NCBI RefSeq assembly: GCF_007713735.2
Contig: NZ_VMNW02000035.1
Coordinates: 1 to 64,000, forward strand
Source: Amycolatopsis acidicola
GTDB lineage: Bacteria; Actinomycetota; Actinomycetes; Mycobacteriales; Pseudonocardiaceae
DNA length: 64,000 nt
Direction of reading: 5' to 3'
The translations under genes were made by a program, and so were the position numbers. A model generated the notes under the pieces. That model was given only the letters and a program-made list of their open reading frames with translations, was not told the DNA's origin and searched no databases. This document shows positions 11,138-56,617 of this stretch, piece after piece (positions within the stretch are counted from its first letter, which is position 1; each line of letters begins with the position of its first letter).

Positions 11138-11797
11138 GTGAGTGCCCCGGATCTCGACTTCGACCAGGTCTACCGCGAGTCGCCGTACGTACCCTGGGTG
11201 ATCGGCGAACCCCAGCCCCTGCTGGTCGAGCTGGAAGCCGCCGGCGAAATCCGCGGCGAAGTGCTCGACGTCGGCTGCGGGCCGGGAGACAACGCGACCT
11301 TCCTCGCGAGTCGCGGGTACCACGTCACCGGCGTCGACGGCTCACGCACCGCGATCGACCGTGCCCGGGCGAAAACGGACGAAGTGGAGTTCGTGGTCGC
11401 CGACGCCACCCGCCTCGACGGGTTCGAGGACCGTTTCGACACGGTGCTCGACAGCGCCCTCTACCACTGTCTCGACGACGACGAGCAGCGCGCCTACGTC
11501 GCCGCGCTGCACCGCGCGTGCCGGCCCGGCGCCACCGTGCACGTGTTCTGCCAGGCCGAACAGCTCGCCGGAATGCCGGGCCCGCGCGTGATTCCCGAGG
11601 ACAACCTCCGCGCGACCTTCACCGTCGCCGGCGGCTGGCGGATCACGCGGCTGGAGAGAGCTTCGTACACCACGTCGATGACCGAGGAGATCCTCGCGCA
11701 GATCCACCCGGAGGCCGTGGGGCGGGTGCCGTTGGATGAGCGGGGAAGGTTCTTGATGCCCGTTTGGCAGGTTGCTGTGGAGTGGGTGGCTTTGTAG
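11138..11797 (+). CDS. Class I SAM-dependent methyltransferase
   Basis: The protein has 219 residues. Motif I is LDVGCGPGDNATFLA (about 45-60), and acidic residue motifs are VTGVDGS and VVADATRLDGF. The DSALYHCLDDDEQRAYVAALHRACRPGA segment is typical of small-molecule methyltransferases of the thiopurine/tellurite-resistance type, so the substrate is unassigned. The start is GTG at 11138. An upstream GGAG lies 17 nt away, which is far, so the start is less certain. It is divergent from the LLM cluster. The gene-free repeat region follows it. Confidence 0.85.
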   Translation: MSAPDLDFDQVYRESPYVPWVIGEPQPLLVELEAAGEIRGEVLDVGCGPGDNATFLASRGYHVTGVDGSRTAIDRARAKTDEVEFVVADATRLDGFEDRFDTVLDSALYHCLDDDEQRAYVAALHRACRPGATVHVFCQAEQLAGMPGPRVIPEDNLRATFTVAGGWRITRLERASYTTSMTEEILAQIHPEAVGRVPLDERGRFLMPVWQVAVEWVAL

Positions 11798-11860: not shown

Positions 11861-12029
11861 GGCAGCAACGGACGCGCGTGGCCGCGCTGTGTGCACCCAC
11901 CCCCGCCCCGATCGCGCAGTGTTCAACGGTCGCCGCACCGCGTCAAGGCGGGAAAGATGCCTTGACCCGGCACACCGACCGCTGAAGAGCGCTGGGGATC
12001 GGAACGATGGTGGGGTGTGGTCGTGGGAC
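11861..12029 (+). repeat. Intergenic repeat B, copy 1 (structured, about 170 bp)
   Basis: This stretch is highly similar to the reverse complement of 53321-53489. Both share GCAGCAACGGACGCGCGTGG at one edge, CGCGCTGTGTGCACCC, a central hairpin GTCAAGGC-GGGAAAGAT-GCCTTGAC (11942-11966 here) and GCTGGGGATCGG before a TGGTGGGGTGTGGTC-like end. An outer stem, CGGTCG (11927-11932) with CGACCG (11976-11981), encloses the hairpin with symmetric 9-nt internal loops. It has no coding features. It may be a mobile repeat or a structured RNA. Confidence 0.8.
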
Positions 12030-12118
12030 GGCTCGCTTCGCGTTGCCGGGGCCCGGAGCCAAGCGGACGGGCGCTGGTTGGCCCGGGAGGGATGTTGCGG
12101 GAACCCGGCCGCCGACCG

Positions 12119-12350
12119 CTAGTGTCTCGTGATGCTGTCCGGTTTACGTTGTCGTGTTTGCCCGTGCGGTCGGTGAGTTTGCCCGCCGCGTCACCGAGTT
12201 TGCCGGTCCGGTCGCCGAGTTTGCCCACGGCGACAGCGGTCGGCCAACTCGGCGACACCCCGGGCCAACTCGGCGACGCCAGGGGCCAACCCGGCGCCCT
12301 GGCAGGCAAACACACCCGCGCGGAAAGACCACAAGATCACGAGACACTAG
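12119..12350. mobile_element. MITE-like element with 15-bp terminal inverted repeats (family A)
   Basis: The ends are perfect 15-bp inverted repeats, CTAGTGTCTCGTGAT at 12119-12133 and its complement at 12336-12350, each bounded by CTAG. Inside are four direct 21-bp units starting GTGTTTGCC or GAGTTTGCC (12154, 12175, 12196, 12217), then four inverted units (GGCCAACTC or GGCAAACAC at 12242, 12263, 12284, 12305). The whole can fold into a long hairpin. There is no transposase, so it would be non-autonomous. Its right end contains the icmF stop codon TAG. Confidence 0.75.
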
Positions 12351-15300
12351 ATGTTGCGCCGGTATTGGCCGCCTACTTCGAAGAAGGCGTCGGTGATCTG
12401 GCCCAGCGAGCACACGCGGGCGGCGTCCATCAGCACACCGAACACGTTTTCGCCCCGGGTGGCGGCTTCGCGTAGGGCCTTGAGCGCCTGCTCGGCCTCC
12501 GCCTGGTTGCGCTGCTGGAAGTCCGCCAGCCGCGCCAGCTGGGACTCCTTCTCCCCCTCCGTCGCGCGGGCGAGTTCGACCTCGACCTCGTCGTCCTCGG
12601 GGTGCGGGTTGCGGAACGTGTTCACCCCGACGATGGGCAGCGTGCCATCGTGCTTGAGCCGTTCGTACAACATCGACTCATCCTGGATTTTGCCGCGCTG
12701 GTAACCGGTTTCCATCGCACCCAGCACACCGCCGCGCTCCGAGATCCGGTCGAACTCGGTCAGCACCGCTTCCTCGACCAGATCCGTCAGCTCGTCGATG
12801 ATGAACGAGCCCTGCAACGGGTTTTCGTTGCCCGACAGGCCCCATTCCTTGTTGATGATCATCTGGATGGCCATCGCCCGGCGCACCGAGTTCTCGCTCG
12901 GCGTGGTGATCGCCTCGTCGAAAGCGTTGGTGTGCAAGGAGTTCGCGTTGTCGTACAGCGCGCACAACGCCTGCAGCGTGGTGCGGATGTCGTTGAAGCT
13001 CATCTCCTGCGCGTGCAACGAACGCCCCGACGTCTGCACGTGGTACTTCAGCTTCTGCGAGCGCTCGTTCGCGCCGTAGCGCTCCTTCATCGCGGTGGCC
13101 CAGATCCGCCGCGCCACCCGGCCCAGCACCGAGTATTCCGCATCCATCCCGTTGGAGAAGAAGAACGACAGGTTCGGCGCGAACTCGTCGATGTCCATCC
13201 CGCGCGCGAGATACGACTCGACGTAGGTGAACCCATTCGCCAGCGTGAAGGCCAGCTGCGAGATCGGGTTCGCCCCGGCCTCGGCGATATGGTAGCCCGA
13301 AATGGACACCGAGTAGAAGTTCCGCACCCCGTGCTCGATGAACCACTCCTGGATGTCCGCCATCATCCGCAGGCTGAACTCGGTGGAGAAGATGCAGGTG
13401 TTCTGCCCCTGGTCCTCCTTGAGGATGTCCGCCTGCACCGTGCCGCGCACGTTGCGCAGCGTCCACTCGCGCAGCTCCTCCGCCTCCTCGGCCGAGGGCT
13501 CACGACCGTGCTCTTCCTTGAAGGCGGCCAGTTTCTGGTCGATCGCCGTGTTGAGGAAGTACGCCAGGATGGTCGGCGCCGGCCCGTTGATCGTCATCGA
13601 CACCGACGTGCTCGGCGCGGTCAGGTCGAAACCGTCGTAGAGGACCTTCATGTCCTCCAGCGTCGCGATGGAAACCCCGGACGTGCCGACCTTGCCGTAG
13701 ATGTCAGGGCGCGTCGCCGGGTCGTGCCCGTAGAGGGTCACCGAGTCGAACGCGGTGGACAGCCGCTTCGCCGCAGAATCCGCCGACAGGTACTTGAACC
13801 GCCGGTTCGTGCGGAACGCGTCACCCTCGCCGGCGAACATCCGGGCCGGATCCTCACCCTCCCGCTTGAACGGGAAAACCCCGGCGGTGTAAGGAAAGTA
13901 GCCCGGCAGGTTCTCGCGGCGCAGGAACGAGTACAGCTCACCCTGGTCCATGTAGCGCGGCAACGCGACGCGCGGGATCTTGTTGCCCGACAACGTCTCC
14001 CGCCACAGCTGGGTGCGCAGCTCCTTGTCCCGCACCTTGAACACGAGCTCCTCGCCGCGATACGACTCGGCCAGCTCGGCATACTCCGCCAGCAGCTTCC
14101 GCGTTTCTTCGTCCACACGCGACTCGGCCTCGGTGAGCAGTTCGCCGATCGCCTCGGTGTCCGCGCCCGCCCGCTCCAGCGCCTTCTTCGCCGCCGCCAG
14201 CTGGTCACGCTCACGCACCGCTTCGGCCTGCTCCCGCGTGCGCTGGTGGTAGCCACGCACCGTGTCGGAGATGTCGGCGAGGTAGCGCGTGCGCGAGGTC
14301 GGGATGATCGTGCCCGCCCCGGTGGACACCTTGCTCCCGACGTGCGGCAGCGTGCCCGCCGACACCGAAAGACCGCGCTCCGCAAGGGAATCCCGCAGAT
14401 ACTGGTACAGCGCGGTGACCCCGTCGTCGTTGAACTTCGCGGCGCTGGTGCCGAACACCGGCATGTCGTCCGGCGAAGCACCGAACTCCTCGCGGTTGCG
14501 CACCAGCTGACGCGCGACATCGCGGCGAGCGTCCTCCGCGCCGCGTCGCTCGAACTTGTTGATCGCCACCACGTCGGCGAAGTCGAGCATGTCGATCTTC
14601 TCCAGCTGCGACGCGGCGCCGAACTCCGGCGTCATCACGTACAGCGAGCTGTCGACGTAATCCACGATCCCCGCGTCGCCCTGTCCGATCCCCGGCGTCT
14701 CCACGATCACCAGGTCGTAGCCCGCGGCCTTGCACGCCAGGATGGACTCCCGCAGCCCGGTCGGGATCTCGCCGCTCTTCGTCCTCGTTGCCAGGGAACG
14801 GAAATAGACCGGCCCGCCGTCGAGGCTGTTCATCCGGATCCGGTCGCCCAGCAGCGCCCCACCACCGCGCCGCCGCGTCGGGTCCACCGCCAGAACCGCG
14901 ATGCGCACCTTGTCCTGCTGGTCCAGCCGGAAGCGGCGGACGAGCTCGTCGGTGAGCGAGGACTTGCCCGAACCGCCGGTGCCGGTGATGCCCAGGACGG
15001 GAACGGTGCGCTTGCCCGCCGTCTCGGTGATCGCGTCGAGCCAGTCCTGCGGCAGCTGCCCGCCCTGCAGGCGGGTGATCGTGCGCGCCAGCGCCGGTAC
15101 GTCCCCCGAGAGCAGCTGGTCGATCGAGCCGACCTGCTCCGCCGCCAGGTCCGTGTCACAGGACTCGATCATCATGTTGATCATCCCGGGCAGGCCCAGC
15201 TCGAGCCCGTCGTCCGGGGAGAAGATCCGCGCCACGCCGCGGGAGTGCAGCAGCTCGATCTCCTCGCGGACGATGACCCCGCCACCGCCGCCGAAGACCT

Positions 15301-15583
15301 TGATGTGCCCCGCCCCGCGTTCGCGCAGCAGCTCGACCAGATAGCTGAAGTACTCGACGTGGCCGCCCTGATAGGCGCTGATCGCCACGCCTTGGGCGTC
15401 TTCGGCGATCGCGGCCGTGGCGACCTCGTCGACCGAGCGGTTGTGCCCCAGGTGCACGACCTCCGCACCCTGCGCTTGCAGGATCCGGCGCATGATGTTG
15501 ATCGAGGCGTCGTGCCCGTCGAACAGGCTCGACGCCGTCACGAACCGAACCGGGTGGACGGCCTTGTGCAGAGGAGCGTTCAT
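12347..15583 (-). CDS. icmF: Fused isobutyryl-CoA mutase IcmF
   Basis: This 1078-residue adenosylcobalamin enzyme interconverts isobutyryl-CoA and n-butyryl-CoA (some members also act on pivalyl-CoA). Domain order is diagnostic: N-terminal B12-binding domain with DGHDAS (about 24-29), a MeaB-like GTPase with Walker A GTGGSGKSS (about 200) and VETPGIGQGD, then the mutase barrel with YLSADSAAKRLS, YGKVGTSGVS and VSMTINGPAP. The length equals the family norm. The start is ATG at 15583. The gene follows the conservon on the same strand by 69 bp but probably has its own promoter. Its stop lies in the terminal repeat of the adjacent MITE-like element. Confidence 0.96.
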   Translation of the reverse strand: MNAPLHKAVHPVRFVTASSLFDGHDASINIMRRILQAQGAEVVHLGHNRSVDEVATAAIAEDAQGVAISAYQGGHVEYFSYLVELLRERGAGHIKVFGGGGGVIVREEIELLHSRGVARIFSPDDGLELGLPGMINMMIESCDTDLAAEQVGSIDQLLSGDVPALARTITRLQGGQLPQDWLDAITETAGKRTVPVLGITGTGGSGKSSLTDELVRRFRLDQQDKVRIAVLAVDPTRRRGGGALLGDRIRMNSLDGGPVYFRSLATRTKSGEIPTGLRESILACKAAGYDLVIVETPGIGQGDAGIVDYVDSSLYVMTPEFGAASQLEKIDMLDFADVVAINKFERRGAEDARRDVARQLVRNREEFGASPDDMPVFGTSAAKFNDDGVTALYQYLRDSLAERGLSVSAGTLPHVGSKVSTGAGTIIPTSRTRYLADISDTVRGYHQRTREQAEAVRERDQLAAAKKALERAGADTEAIGELLTEAESRVDEETRKLLAEYAELAESYRGEELVFKVRDKELRTQLWRETLSGNKIPRVALPRYMDQGELYSFLRRENLPGYFPYTAGVFPFKREGEDPARMFAGEGDAFRTNRRFKYLSADSAAKRLSTAFDSVTLYGHDPATRPDIYGKVGTSGVSIATLEDMKVLYDGFDLTAPSTSVSMTINGPAPTILAYFLNTAIDQKLAAFKEEHGREPSAEEAEELREWTLRNVRGTVQADILKEDQGQNTCIFSTEFSLRMMADIQEWFIEHGVRNFYSVSISGYHIAEAGANPISQLAFTLANGFTYVESYLARGMDIDEFAPNLSFFFSNGMDAEYSVLGRVARRIWATAMKERYGANERSQKLKYHVQTSGRSLHAQEMSFNDIRTTLQALCALYDNANSLHTNAFDEAITTPSENSVRRAMAIQMIINKEWGLSGNENPLQGSFIIDELTDLVEEAVLTEFDRISERGGVLGAMETGYQRGKIQDESMLYERLKHDGTLPIVGVNTFRNPHPEDDEVEVELARATEGEKESQLARLADFQQRNQAEAEQALKALREAATRGENVFGVLMDAARVCSLGQITDAFFEVGGQYRRNI

Positions 15584-48089: not shown

Positions 48090-48097
48090 CAGCGTGC

Positions 48098-48124
48098 GGG
48101 GCACCCTCGGCGCGAGGGTGCCCC
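48098..48124. terminator. Bidirectional terminator hairpin
   Basis: GGGGCACCCTC (48098-48108) pairs fully with GAGGGTGCCCC (48114-48124) around GGCGC between the convergent DAHP synthase (stop 48089) and RNase AS (stop 48130) genes. Confidence 0.85.
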
Positions 48125-48129
48125 GATGC

Positions 48130-52151: not shown

Positions 52152-53246
52152 ATGTCGAAGGTCGTCATTGCCCCGGACAAGTTCAAGGGGTCCTTGCCCG
52201 CCAAGGAGGTCGCGGACGCGATCGCCGCCGGGTTGCGGGGGGCGGTGCCCGGGGTCGAGACGGCGGAGTGCCCGATCGCCGACGGGGGTGACGGCACGGT
52301 GGCGGCCGCGGTGGCCGCGGGGTTCGCGTTCGTGCCGGCCGTGGCGACCGGGCCGACGGGTGAGCCGGTCGAGACGGGCTACGCGCGGCAGGGAAACACG
52401 GCGATCGTCGAGCTGGCAGCGGTTTCCGGGTTGAGCCGCCTGCCCGGCGGAGTGCTCGCGCCGTTGACGTCGAGCACGCTCGGGGTGGGCGAGCTCATCG
52501 CGCACGCGCTCGCGGCGGGCTGCCGGAAGATCGTGATCGGGCTCGGTGGCAGCGCGAGCACCGACGGCGGGTCGGGTTTGGTCCGTGGCCTCGGCGCGCG
52601 ACTCCTCGACGCGGACGGCGCGGAGATTTCCCTTGGCGGGCAAGCACTTCCCGACCTCGCGCGGGTGGACCTGAGCGAAATGGACCTCCACGGCGCGGAG
52701 TTCGTGGTGGCGAGCGACGTCGACAACCCACTGCTGGGCGAGCACGGCGCCGCCGCGATTTACGGGCCGCAGAAGGGTGCGTCGCCGGAGGATGTGGCGG
52801 CGCTGGACTCGGCGTTGCGGCACTTCGCAGAGCTGGTCGACCCGAGCTTCGCCGACGCGCCCGGCGCGGGCGCGGCAGGCGGCACGGGGTACGCGTGCCT
52901 GGCGATCCTCGGCGCGTCCTTCCGCGCGGGCATCGACGTCGTGCTGGAAATGACGGCCTTCGCGGAAAAACTGGCCGGGGCGGACCTCGTGATCACCGGC
53001 GAAGGATCCTTCGACGAACAGACCCTGCACGGCAAGGGCCCGGCCGGAATCGCCGCGCAGGCGGGAGAAACCCCCGTCGTGGCGATGGCCGGGCACACGT
53101 CCTTGCCGCCGGAAGTGTTGCGCGCCAACGGCTTCGCGGCGGCCTACGCGCTGACCGACATCGAGCCGGACGTCGGCCGCTGCATGACCGACACCGCCGA
53201 ACTGCTGGAGCAGCTGGCCGCGCGGGTGGCCAAGGACTGGCTCTGA
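52152..53246 (+). CDS. glxK: Glycerate kinase
   Basis: The 364-residue class II glycerate kinase (GarK/GlxK) has VIAPDKFKGSLPAKEVADAI, IADGGDGTV, GLGGSASTDGGSGLVRGLG, SDVDNPLLGEHGAAAIYGPQKGA, LVITGEGSFDEQTLHGKGP and the C-terminal TAELLEQLAARVAKDW. It phosphorylates glycerate for entry into glycolysis. The ATG is at 52152. It stands alone, and its downstream flank is the repeat cluster. Confidence 0.95.
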   Translation: MSKVVIAPDKFKGSLPAKEVADAIAAGLRGAVPGVETAECPIADGGDGTVAAAVAAGFAFVPAVATGPTGEPVETGYARQGNTAIVELAAVSGLSRLPGGVLAPLTSSTLGVGELIAHALAAGCRKIVIGLGGSASTDGGSGLVRGLGARLLDADGAEISLGGQALPDLARVDLSEMDLHGAEFVVASDVDNPLLGEHGAAAIYGPQKGASPEDVAALDSALRHFAELVDPSFADAPGAGAAGGTGYACLAILGASFRAGIDVVLEMTAFAEKLAGADLVITGEGSFDEQTLHGKGPAGIAAQAGETPVVAMAGHTSLPPEVLRANGFAAAYALTDIEPDVGRCMTDTAELLEQLAARVAKDWL

Positions 53247-53320: not shown

Positions 53321-53489
53321 CACCCACCGACCACACCCCTCCACCGCCCCGATCCCCAGCCCGTCCTTGCGATCTTGGCGCTGGGTCAAGGCATCTTTCC
53401 CGCCTTGACGCGGCGGCAAGATCGCGAACACTCACAGATCGGGGCGGTGGTGGGGTGCACACAGCGCGGCCACGCGCGTCCGTTGCTGC
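53321..53489 (-). repeat. Intergenic repeat B, copy 2
   Basis: This is the reverse-oriented counterpart of 11861-12029. The central hairpin GTCAAGGC-ATCTTTCCC-GCCTTGAC is at 53385-53409. It is enclosed by GCGATCTTG (53369-53377) and CAAGATCGC (53417-53425), a 9-bp stem with symmetric 7-nt internal loops. The outer stem sequence differs from copy 1 but pairing is kept. It lies between the convergent glycerate kinase and metallo-hydrolase genes. Confidence 0.8.
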
Positions 53490-53573
53490 CCCAACGCACG
53501 CCATCACCTAAGCTGCTGCCCCAACGCACGCCACCACCTAAGCTGCTGCCCCAACGCACGCGACCGCCTAAGC
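53484..53573 (-). repeat. Three 30-bp tandem repeats across a stop codon (family C)
   Basis: Three units of 30 bp start with TGCTGCCCCAACGCACG at 53484, 53514 and 53544 and end CCTAAGC. On the minus strand each unit carries GCT TAG, the last codons of the metallo-hydrolase, so three TAG stops follow in frame at 10-codon spacing. The outermost unit abuts repeat B. Confidence 0.85.
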
Positions 53574-54275
53574 GAACATCGTCTTCCACTCGTCCAGGTT
53601 TCGGGGCCGGTAGACGAAGTTGTTCTCCCGCACGGAAGACAGCGCGGCGGACGGGGCGGCCGAGTACTGGTGCCCCGGGAAAACCGTCGGGTCGCCCGGC
53701 AGCTCCGCGAGCGCACGCAGGCTGTGGTACATCGCCTCGGCGTCACCGCCGGGGAAGTCCGTACGACCACAGCCTTCGAGGAACAGCGTGTCCCCCGCGA
53801 CAAGCCTGTCGTCGAGCAGGAAGCACTGGCTCCCTGGCGTGTGCCCCGGCGTGTGCAGCAGCCGGATGGGGATGTCGCCGACCTGGACGACGTCGTCGTG
53901 GTCGTGCGCGGTGATATCGGTGGCCGAGAGCCCGGTGACCCGCTGCACCCACTCGCTCTCGTTGCGGTTCACGTGCACCGGCACGGGTTCGCGCGCCAGC
54001 AGCTCGGCGAGCCCGGCCAGGGTGAAGCCCATCATGCTGCCGCCGACGTGGTCGGGGTGGTGGTGCGTGGCGAGCACGCCGGTGAGCCGCATGTCGTCGG
54101 CCGCGAGCACGTCCAGCAGGTCGCCGACCGCGTAGGCCGGGTCGACGAGCACGGCCTCCCTGGTCTCCCGATCGCCGATCAGGTAGGCGAAGTTGACCAT
54201 CTGGGTGGCGATCGGGTCGCCGACGGCGAAGTCGCGGCCGGAGAGCAGCTGGCGGAAGTACAGGCGGTCGGACAT
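53568..54275 (-). CDS. Metallo-beta-lactamase-fold hydrolase (glyoxalase II-like)
   Basis: The 235-residue protein has the zinc motif THHHPDHVGG (about 71-80), LHTPGHTPGSQCFLL, VAGDTLFLEGCGRTDFPGG and FPGHQY, the metal ligands of glyoxalase II/persulfide-dioxygenase-type enzymes. Family members hydrolyse S-acyl thiols or oxidise persulfides; the exact substrate is open. It is 18 bp after the DUF427 gene. Its stop codon lies in the first unit of a 30-bp tandem repeat. Confidence 0.92.
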   Translation of the reverse strand: MSDRLYFRQLLSGRDFAVGDPIATQMVNFAYLIGDRETREAVLVDPAYAVGDLLDVLAADDMRLTGVLATHHHPDHVGGSMMGFTLAGLAELLAREPVPVHVNRNESEWVQRVTGLSATDITAHDHDDVVQVGDIPIRLLHTPGHTPGSQCFLLDDRLVAGDTLFLEGCGRTDFPGGDAEAMYHSLRALAELPGDPTVFPGHQYSAAPSAALSSVRENNFVYRPRNLDEWKTMFA

Positions 54276-55678: not shown

Positions 55679-56515
55679 TCAGTCCATTGTGGATTCCGCG
55701 GCGGTCACCGTCTGTGCCAGCAGCACGGCGATGGTGGTGGGGCCGACGCCGCCCGGCACCGGGGTGATCAGGCTCGCCCGCTCCGCGGCCTCGGCGAAGG
55801 CGACATCGCCGACATTGCCGGGGTTGTACCCCGCGTCGACCACCACCGCGCCGGGTTTGATCCACGAGCCGCGCACGAACTCCGGCCGCCCCACGGCGGC
55901 GACCACGAGGTCGGCCGACCGCACGATCGACGGCAGGTCCGCGGTGCGCGAATGGCAGACGGTGACCGTCGCATGGCGGGCGAGCAGGAGCATGGCGACC
56001 GGCTTGCCGAGGATCGGACTGCGGCCGATCACCACCGCGTGCCTGCCTTCGATCCCGACCTCGTACGCGTCCAGCAGCCGCATGATGCCGCCCGGCGTGC
56101 ACGACTCGAAACCCGGCAGCCCGAACGACATGGCGGCGAAGGAGTGCATCGTGACGCCGTCGACGTCCTTGCCCGGCGCGATCGCCTCGAAGGCGGCGCG
56201 CTCGTCGATTCCGGCCGGGACCGGGTGCTGCAGCAGGATTCCGTCCACCCCGGGGTCCGCGGACAGCTCGCCGATCACCCGCACCAAACCGGCTGTCGTG
56301 GTGGTGGCGGGCAACGGCACGTGCCGTGACTCGATTCCCGCCTGGCGGCACCGGTTCCGCTTCATCCGCACATACGTCACCGAAGCCGGATCCTCGCCCA
56401 CCAGAACCGTGGCGAGACACGGCTTCCGCCCCGCGGCGGCCTCGAACGCGGCCGCGCGCCGGCCGGCGTCGGCGACGATTTCCTTGGCGAGTTCGGTACC
56501 GGACATCAGGGCCAT
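55679..56515 (-). CDS. folD: Methylenetetrahydrofolate dehydrogenase/cyclohydrolase
   Basis: The 278-residue bifunctional enzyme interconverts 5,10-methylene- and 10-formyl-tetrahydrofolate. It has VGEDPASVTYVRMKRNRC (catalytic Lys region), DGILLQHPVPAGID, PGKDVDGVT, VVIGRSPILGKPVAMLLL (NADP site), TVTVCHSRTADL and VPGGVGPTTIAVLL. The ATG at 56515 has AGGAG 7 nt upstream. A ZTP/pfl riboswitch occupies the leader, so it should be induced when 10-formyl-THF is short and ZTP accumulates. Confidence 0.96.
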   Translation of the reverse strand: MALMSGTELAKEIVADAGRRAAAFEAAAGRKPCLATVLVGEDPASVTYVRMKRNRCRQAGIESRHVPLPATTTTAGLVRVIGELSADPGVDGILLQHPVPAGIDERAAFEAIAPGKDVDGVTMHSFAAMSFGLPGFESCTPGGIMRLLDAYEVGIEGRHAVVIGRSPILGKPVAMLLLARHATVTVCHSRTADLPSIVRSADLVVAAVGRPEFVRGSWIKPGAVVVDAGYNPGNVGDVAFAEAAERASLITPVPGGVGPTTIAVLLAQTVTAAESTMD

Positions 56516-56540
56516 CGGGCGCTCCTCGATCGTCGGGATC

Positions 56541-56609
56541 GCCCAGGCGTGCGGCTCGTCGCAGGACCGCTCCCCGGTGGTGCCCCACCCGAACGCCAGT
56601 CACGGCCCA
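56541..56609 (-). ncRNA. ZTP (pfl motif) riboswitch before folD
   Basis: Read on the minus strand, the 102-bp leader has the conserved blocks of the pfl motif in order: CCGTGACTGGCG, a GGTGG hairpin with CACCACCGGGGAGCG, then a variable linker and GCCGCACGCCTGGGC. This class senses ZTP/ZMP and commonly controls folD, purH and glyA. The last block ends about 15 nt before the folD ribosome site, so folding can affect translation. Confidence 0.9.
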
Positions 56610-56617
56610 TGCCGAGC

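Follow-up and report, generated by a model that had tools for sequence, protein, structure and literature searches.

The locus at 11861-12029 raises the question of how a non-coding sequence of roughly 170 bp can change in its stem and yet keep its pairing, and what kind of element would do so. We address it in the window, i.e. the whole analyzed stretch of 64,000 nucleotides from Amycolatopsis acidicola. An earlier interpretation of the letters alone, here called the sequence-only reading, had placed one copy at 11861-12029 and a second, inverted one at 53321-53489, and both copies are indeed present there in opposite orientation. Self-comparison of the window recovers them as the inverted pairs 11938-12023/53328-53413 (80%) and 11839-11909/53442-53512 (82%). 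The inner hairpin GTCAAGGCGGGAAAGATGCCTTGAC is identical between the copies (11942-11966 and 53385-53409), and the outer stems likewise have the sequences that had been claimed, CGGTCG/CGACCG in copy 1 and GCGATCTTG/CAAGATCGC in copy 2. The symmetric internal loops of 9 and 7 nt hold as spacer lengths per side, but parts of these spacers pair too. Both copies fold better than shuffled sequences (z -3.73 and -8.08), with none of 200 shuffles as good for either copy. The repeat, which we term element B, exceeds its earlier description. Its core comprises 155 bases (11866-12020 and 53331-53485) and contains a hairpin of about 130 nt together with a small GC hairpin, arranged in three tiers: an outer stem, a hypervariable paired middle stem X and a near-invariant tip. 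In the orientation of the sequence-only reading, the layout is the small GC hairpin, the outer stem ACCC.CC...GCCCCGATC to GATCGG...GGGGTGTGG, an asymmetric internal loop, stem X and the tip, which reads GTCAAGGC..GGAAAG..CCTTGAC. The strands given for the two cores below are those favored by the wobble comparison described further on.

11866-12020, minus strand favored (reading orientation plus): core of element B copy 1, matched by model R1 with 149.8 bits in the reading orientation
11874-11887, no strand: small GC hairpin GCGCG...CGCGC adjoining the main hairpin; helix 1 is invariant in 29/29 aligned copies
11895-11913, no strand: low-coordinate arm of the outer stem, C-rich, with the end CCCCGATC (fold and consensus structure)
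11923-11941, no strand: low-coordinate arm of the hypervariable middle stem X (sequence and arm-pair comparison)
11942-11966, no strand: near-invariant tip hairpin GTCAAGGC-loop-GCCTTGAC, with 28 exact matches and one with a single mismatch in the source genome
11967-11985, no strand: high-coordinate arm of stem X (sequence and arm-pair comparison)
11994-12020, no strand: high-coordinate arm of the outer stem, GGGGATCGG...GGTGGGGTGTGG (fold and consensus structure)
12021-12060, no strand: flanking small repeat module of the GGCTCGCTTCGCGTTGCCGGG type, present beside other copies too (source-genome copies aligned by eye)
53331-53485, plus strand favored (reading orientation minus): core of element B copy 2, matched by model R1 with 175.1 bits
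53366-53428, no strand: copy 2 stem X arms (53366-53384 and 53410-53428) with the tip hairpin (53385-53409) between them (sequence and tip match)

Other members of the genus keep the outer stem and the tip and carry different X sequences; some of them have a branched tip loop instead, in which GTCAAG...CTTGAC is retained. Further repeats lie close to the window copies. The junction of copy 1 also contains, at 12117-12350, a distinct inverted-repeat element (about 230 bp, ends CTAGTGTCTCGTGAT...ATCACGAGACACTAG), which is perhaps the element A of the sequence-only reading. A short repeat of the GCTGCCCCAACGCACGCC..CACCTAA type adjoins copy 2 in about three tandem units at approximately 53487-53570. 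Short hairpin modules of the CCCGGCAACGAAAGCCGGG and GGCAACGCGAAGCGAGCC types recur beside many copies of the source genome, e.g. L064 and L073, and form mosaics. Such mosaics of short modules resemble BIMEs.

The change of sequence with kept pairing, which had been proposed from two copies, is borne out over many. RNAalifold analysis of 29 distinct full-length copies from the source genome yields 41 pairs, 10 of which show two-sided changes. Within the consensus structure, 97.3% of the cells are paired compared to 92.2% in shuffles, and the covariation score of 0.147 exceeds both the shuffled control (0.056) and the control with slid partners (at most 0.063). From all fetched loci we collected 120 distinct X arm pairs, of which 118 are genuine after removal of two chance hits of the pattern scan in Bacillota MAGs (L201 and L232), the arms of which do not pair. 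At least 10 of 16 positions are paired in 117 of these 118. The sole failing pair, L224, is a genuine copy with unpaired arms of different types and was left out by the 10-of-16 filter; many copies with an unpaired stem, which the sequence-only reading had named as the finding that would speak against it, were not seen. On a nearest-neighbor tree of the remaining 117 arm pairs we count 66 two-sided changes from one Watson-Crick pair to another, with 23 of the 116 edges skipped for carrying more than six differences each.

The mismatches that do occur in X are distributed unevenly between the strands. Viewed in the strand of the sequence-only reading, 83 cells are A.C or C.A and 9 are G.T or T.G, and in the complementary strand the 83 become G.U wobbles. 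The same tree gives, for the complementary strand, 47 one-sided changes to G.U, 6 to A.C and 24 to other mismatches, and the excess is visible in both transition classes (GC-GU 25 and AU-GU 22, GC-AC 4 and AU-AC 2). When the X arms are folded alone, the complementary strand is the more stable one in 109 of 139 distinct copies, less stable in 26 and equal in 4; for the whole element, the reading strand is predicted to be the more stable one in 91 of the 139, with 47 opposite and 1 equal. A plain C-to-T strand bias was considered as sole cause of the asymmetry and rejected, as AU-GU exceeds AU-AC by 22 to 2, although the unpaired columns lean the same way (changes to A in 13 of 29 G columns and to T in 3 of 18 C columns). 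A mutational strand bias of some degree is possible, for which these unpaired columns give a mild hint. Since one-sided changes to G.U far outnumber those to A.C only when the complementary strand is folded, selection appears to act on the fold of this one strand, opposite to that of the sequence-only reading. The preference fits either RNA or single-stranded DNA.

Element B is dispersed well beyond the window. In the source genome (9.47 Mb, 195 contigs) we obtained 98 model matches, which correspond to 59 distinct places after merging of opposite-strand overlaps; this search scored 150 of 13476 first-look candidates, and weak copies may be missing. Contig ends lie no more than 60 bp away from 23 of the 59 places, and some of the pieces there may belong pairwise to a single split copy, which leaves the count with an uncertainty of several copies; the same proximity indicates that the element explains many of the short-read assembly breaks. 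Model R1 finds matches in 16 of 19 sampled genomes of the genus, and model R2 in 58 of 200 genomes and 17 of 46 genera of the family, each count including the source genome. Carriers among the matches listed are many Amycolatopsis species, Umezawaea endophytica, an Actinokineospora and Halosaccharopolyspora lacisalsi, and records near to the source genome may be missing among them. The tips are similar in most family-level matches inspected, which were found by the model and not by exact pattern; a scan of named genomes, comprising at least 113 stretches, was chosen by the tip pattern and cannot show tip conservation. At the class level, 7 of 394 genomes match including the source genome, and the matches in 6 of the 393 others (G302, G223, G260, G282, G294 and G505) are mostly weak. 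All six show the same layout by eye, and we regard them as unconfirmed with the exception of G260 (E 2e-11). Filtering was stricter at the family and class levels, and the number of candidates scored in each genome was small (16 and 8, respectively).

To place the copies relative to genes, neighbors were called with a purpose-built codon-score gene finder. In the window, genes converge on both copies.

11138-11797, plus strand: methyltransferase-domain gene converging on copy 1 (gene finder, Pfam PF13649)
12347-15583, minus strand: fused methylmalonyl-CoA mutase/MeaB/B12-binding gene on the opposite flank of copy 1, likewise converging on it (gene finder, Pfam)
52152-53246, plus strand: glycerate kinase gene converging on copy 2 (gene finder, Pfam)
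53568-54275, minus strand: metallo-beta-lactamase-fold gene converging on copy 2 (gene finder, Pfam)

Among the source-genome copies with both neighbors called, 21 of 29 are convergent, 8 tandem and none divergent, while 26 of 55 rows are without a called neighbor. The background, taken from 400 kb of the source genome plus the window, is 59 convergent among 369 gene pairs, or 9 among 67 gaps of at least 200 bp, and against the latter the enrichment is strong (p 7e-13). Other members of the genus show the same tendency with 19 of 24 copies convergent and 1 divergent, as do the named genomes with 23 of 47 convergent and 6 divergent, compared to 55 of 399 gene pairs in their background (79 matches in 78 loci of at least 113 stretches). 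The sequence-only reading had counted random placement with decay as evidence against function. The first part does not apply, as placement in convergent gaps is non-random, and the second applies in part, since some copies carry central deletions. Full outer stems with deleted centers occur inside contigs (L113, L117, L118, L121 and a second copy of L115) and near contig ends (L114, L116, L120 and L123).

Orthologous junctions give insight into gain and turnover. At the copy-2 junction, between the glycerate kinase and the metallo-beta-lactamase-fold gene, the tip motif is absent in the 18 relatives having the kinase, in 7 of which the two genes overlap by 4 bp. At the copy-1 junction, between the methyltransferase and the fused methylmalonyl-CoA mutase gene, no tip motif was found in the 6 relatives examined, and the gap measures 3-141 bp in these compared to 549 bp here. 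Because the junctions of relatives are without them, both window copies look like gains, with the restriction that the junction searches relied on the tip pattern and could miss decayed copies. The flanks at gain junctions are a mosaic of other repeats in which no target duplication is readable. At the junction between the DAHP synthase and Rv2179c-like genes, G005, G008, G014 and G015 carry the element in one shared orientation, each with its own, mostly paired X, and G006 carries it the other way round. Twelve genomes have no copy there, and in G017 the sequence stops at a contig end. Strong simple hairpins are found instead at this junction in several of the 12 genomes without a copy at the site (the source genome, G002, G003 and G004). 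In the window itself, a simple GC hairpin lies at 48090-48129, at the convergent DAHP-synthase junction where four relatives have element B. Elements with different X also occupy other orthologous sites (L087/L101, L128/L178), and at a further one the element is inverted (L157 compared to L176/L220/L265). The shared occupation of several orthologous sites by more than one species shows that copies stay in place for long rather than moving often. Unrelated repeats or hairpins were additionally seen in the same convergent gaps of other species (L278, L285, L332, L346 and others).

We consider it probable, with moderate confidence, that element B is one family of non-autonomous mobile hairpins in the Pseudonocardiaceae, REPIN/ERIC/MITE-like, which is tolerated or co-opted at gene 3' ends. 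The substrate would be a folded single strand of defined polarity, either a transcript or single-stranded DNA exposed in replication or transcription. An enzyme recognizing the outer stem and the tip would act on this folded strand and copy or move the element, and X may be a spacer with pairing as its only requirement. Copies landing in coding or promoter DNA would be lost, and those between convergent 3' ends would survive, where the hairpin may block transcription as a substitute for the simple GC hairpin that relatives have at the same junction. Several observations count against this reading: none of the candidate mobilizing enzymes considered tracks the element, neither a terminal inverted repeat nor a target duplication was established, the energy of the whole element favors the other strand, the unpaired columns leave room for a mutational strand bias, and the orthologous sites shared between species speak for long residence.

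An unlikely alternative makes the barrier the reason for existence of the element, namely a host-useful bidirectional barrier that would terminate transcription, or insulate it, in the gap between facing genes and is kept locus by locus. The strong convergent enrichment agrees with it, as do the simple hairpins at the DAHP-synthase junction of genomes without the element there and the sites that remain occupied across species with differing X or even in opposite orientation. However, a symmetric role does not predict the one-strand wobble preference, and tandem contexts show no orientation preference, with the favored strand being sense in 17 and antisense in 13 cases (source-genome, genus and named-genome copies), which also led us to reject a role as 3'UTR of the sense gene. 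By eye, three source-genome copies (L052, L055 and L081) lie beyond a canonical terminator already present between gene and element, and a U-tract after the hairpin was seen on neither side of the source-genome copies. Copies with central deletions moreover persist, and the available part of a pneumococcal study reads the convergent enrichment of other enriched repeats and IS elements as tolerance (PMC3049150).

Rather doubtful in our view is an RNA-level mobile element, in which the favored strand would be transcribed from within and its fold copied to new sites by an actinobacterial enzyme, SINE-like or RNA-guided, without RAYT or IS605; the fixed tip would be its recognition site and X free under pairing alone. 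Improbable is also a structured non-coding RNA that would exist in many copies spread by duplication, have a promoter of its own and work in trans or as a scaffold, with the invariant tip loop CUUUCCC of the favored strand as its putative active site. Besides the wobble preference and the covariation, this proposal can draw on the tip, which is near-invariant in the source-genome copies and similar in most family-level matches inspected, but the orientation of the copies is independent of their neighbors and individual copies are dispensable. Element B further matches no Rfam family at gathering score, the only such match in the window being a ZMP/ZTP riboswitch at 56534-56613 on the minus strand (51.3 bits), upstream of the gene 55679-56515 (minus strand). 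Lax Rfam searches, which covered two copies, stayed below threshold. A full-length model match of the Streptomyces sRNA Scr3202 (RF02833) to the favored strand of copy 1 is at chance level (17.0 bits compared to a gathering score of 52, E 3.7), and mir-9223, a generic long hairpin, reached 30.1 of 53 bits (E 1.6e-4).

It is highly improbable that the pairing is kept by arm-to-arm correction, i.e. template switching or cruciform gene conversion in a quasi-palindrome, and not by selection. Traces of such a process may be seen in L110, in which the tip is inverted between near-perfect arms, and in L227, a perfect palindrome with one arm copying the other that lies 50 bp from a contig end and may be an assembly artefact. 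Correction of this kind is strand-symmetric, yet the mismatches are G.U on one strand (83 to 9 cells, 47 to 6 events), and fixed unpaired internal loops and a first-position mismatch survive in many copies.

A true REPIN mobilized by RAYT, or an IS200/IS605-derived element, can hardly be meant here in spite of the like anatomy with conserved ends and a variable paired interior with compensatory changes (PMC3116915), since 18 of 19 genus genomes, the source genome among them, lack both PF01797 and PF07282, and no GTAG-tagged REP hairpin pair was recognized by eye at the ends of the source-genome copies. The Y1 transposase domain (PF01797) and the TnpB-type domain (PF07282) each occur in one of the 19 genus genomes, G013, which is element-free, and we thus rejected both RAYT/REP mobilization and an IS605-type TnpB as mover. 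The corresponding loci L287 and L344 (G013:C9) form the only IS605-like TnpA/TnpB pair among the 19. A resident reverse transcriptase (PF00078) is present in 8 of 19 genomes and was rejected as well; since it is missing in eight element-bearing genomes (G004, G005, G006, G008, G011, G014, G015 and G016), it is without association to the element.

Non-autonomous mobile hairpins, our preferred reading, bear on a wider question. Dispersed palindromes are common in bacteria, but rarely is it evident in which form, double-stranded DNA, single-stranded DNA or RNA, their fold is important, or what moves them. Element B offers more than 100 distinct stems of a single architecture, with a polarity signal by which folding of one strand can be told apart from symmetric DNA effects, and its orthologous junctions with and without the element make these questions directly testable where the RAYT answer does not apply.

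When compared to known systems, for which we drew on the accessible parts of the cited sources, element B shares features with several. A published description of the element itself was not found in the literature searched, most subscription journals lying outside its reach. The SPRITE repeats of Streptococcus pneumoniae are likewise small dispersed hairpins with strong enrichment at convergent 3' ends and possible co-option as terminators, but are AT-rich and have a duplex of 18 bp followed by a U-rich tract (PMC3049150). Element B is in contrast GC-rich and longer, is without a U-tract and covaries across genera. ERIC sequences, from an unrelated taxon, are compared here by anatomy, and differ from element B with its variable X and fixed tip. 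They are imperfect palindromes of 100-odd bp like element B and have no known transposase either. Tens of intergenic copies are a further common trait (PMC10969869). The CGTC-tagged REPs are palindromic, without dedicated transposase and often downstream of genes, but consist of single stems of 8-9 bp with loops of 4-5 nt, and the accessible portion of their description mentions neither actinobacteria nor Streptomyces nor Amycolatopsis (PMC3733652). Of the MITE characteristics, element B is short, non-coding, multicopy and polymorphic in position, and the junction comparisons established neither terminal inverted repeats nor a target duplication. REPINs, i.e. REP doublets forming hairpins, resemble it as dispersed extragenic hairpins with conserved blocks and a less conserved paired interior, the spacers of which show compensatory changes in Pseudomonas, and their fold is thought to act as single-stranded DNA or mRNA (PMC3116915). 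Element B differs from them as one larger three-tier hairpin with a near-invariant tip, and the Y1 transposase/RAYT is missing in 18 of 19 genus genomes. We file it outside the REPIN, ERIC, MITE sensu stricto and terminator classes, as an element of the dispersed palindromic kind.
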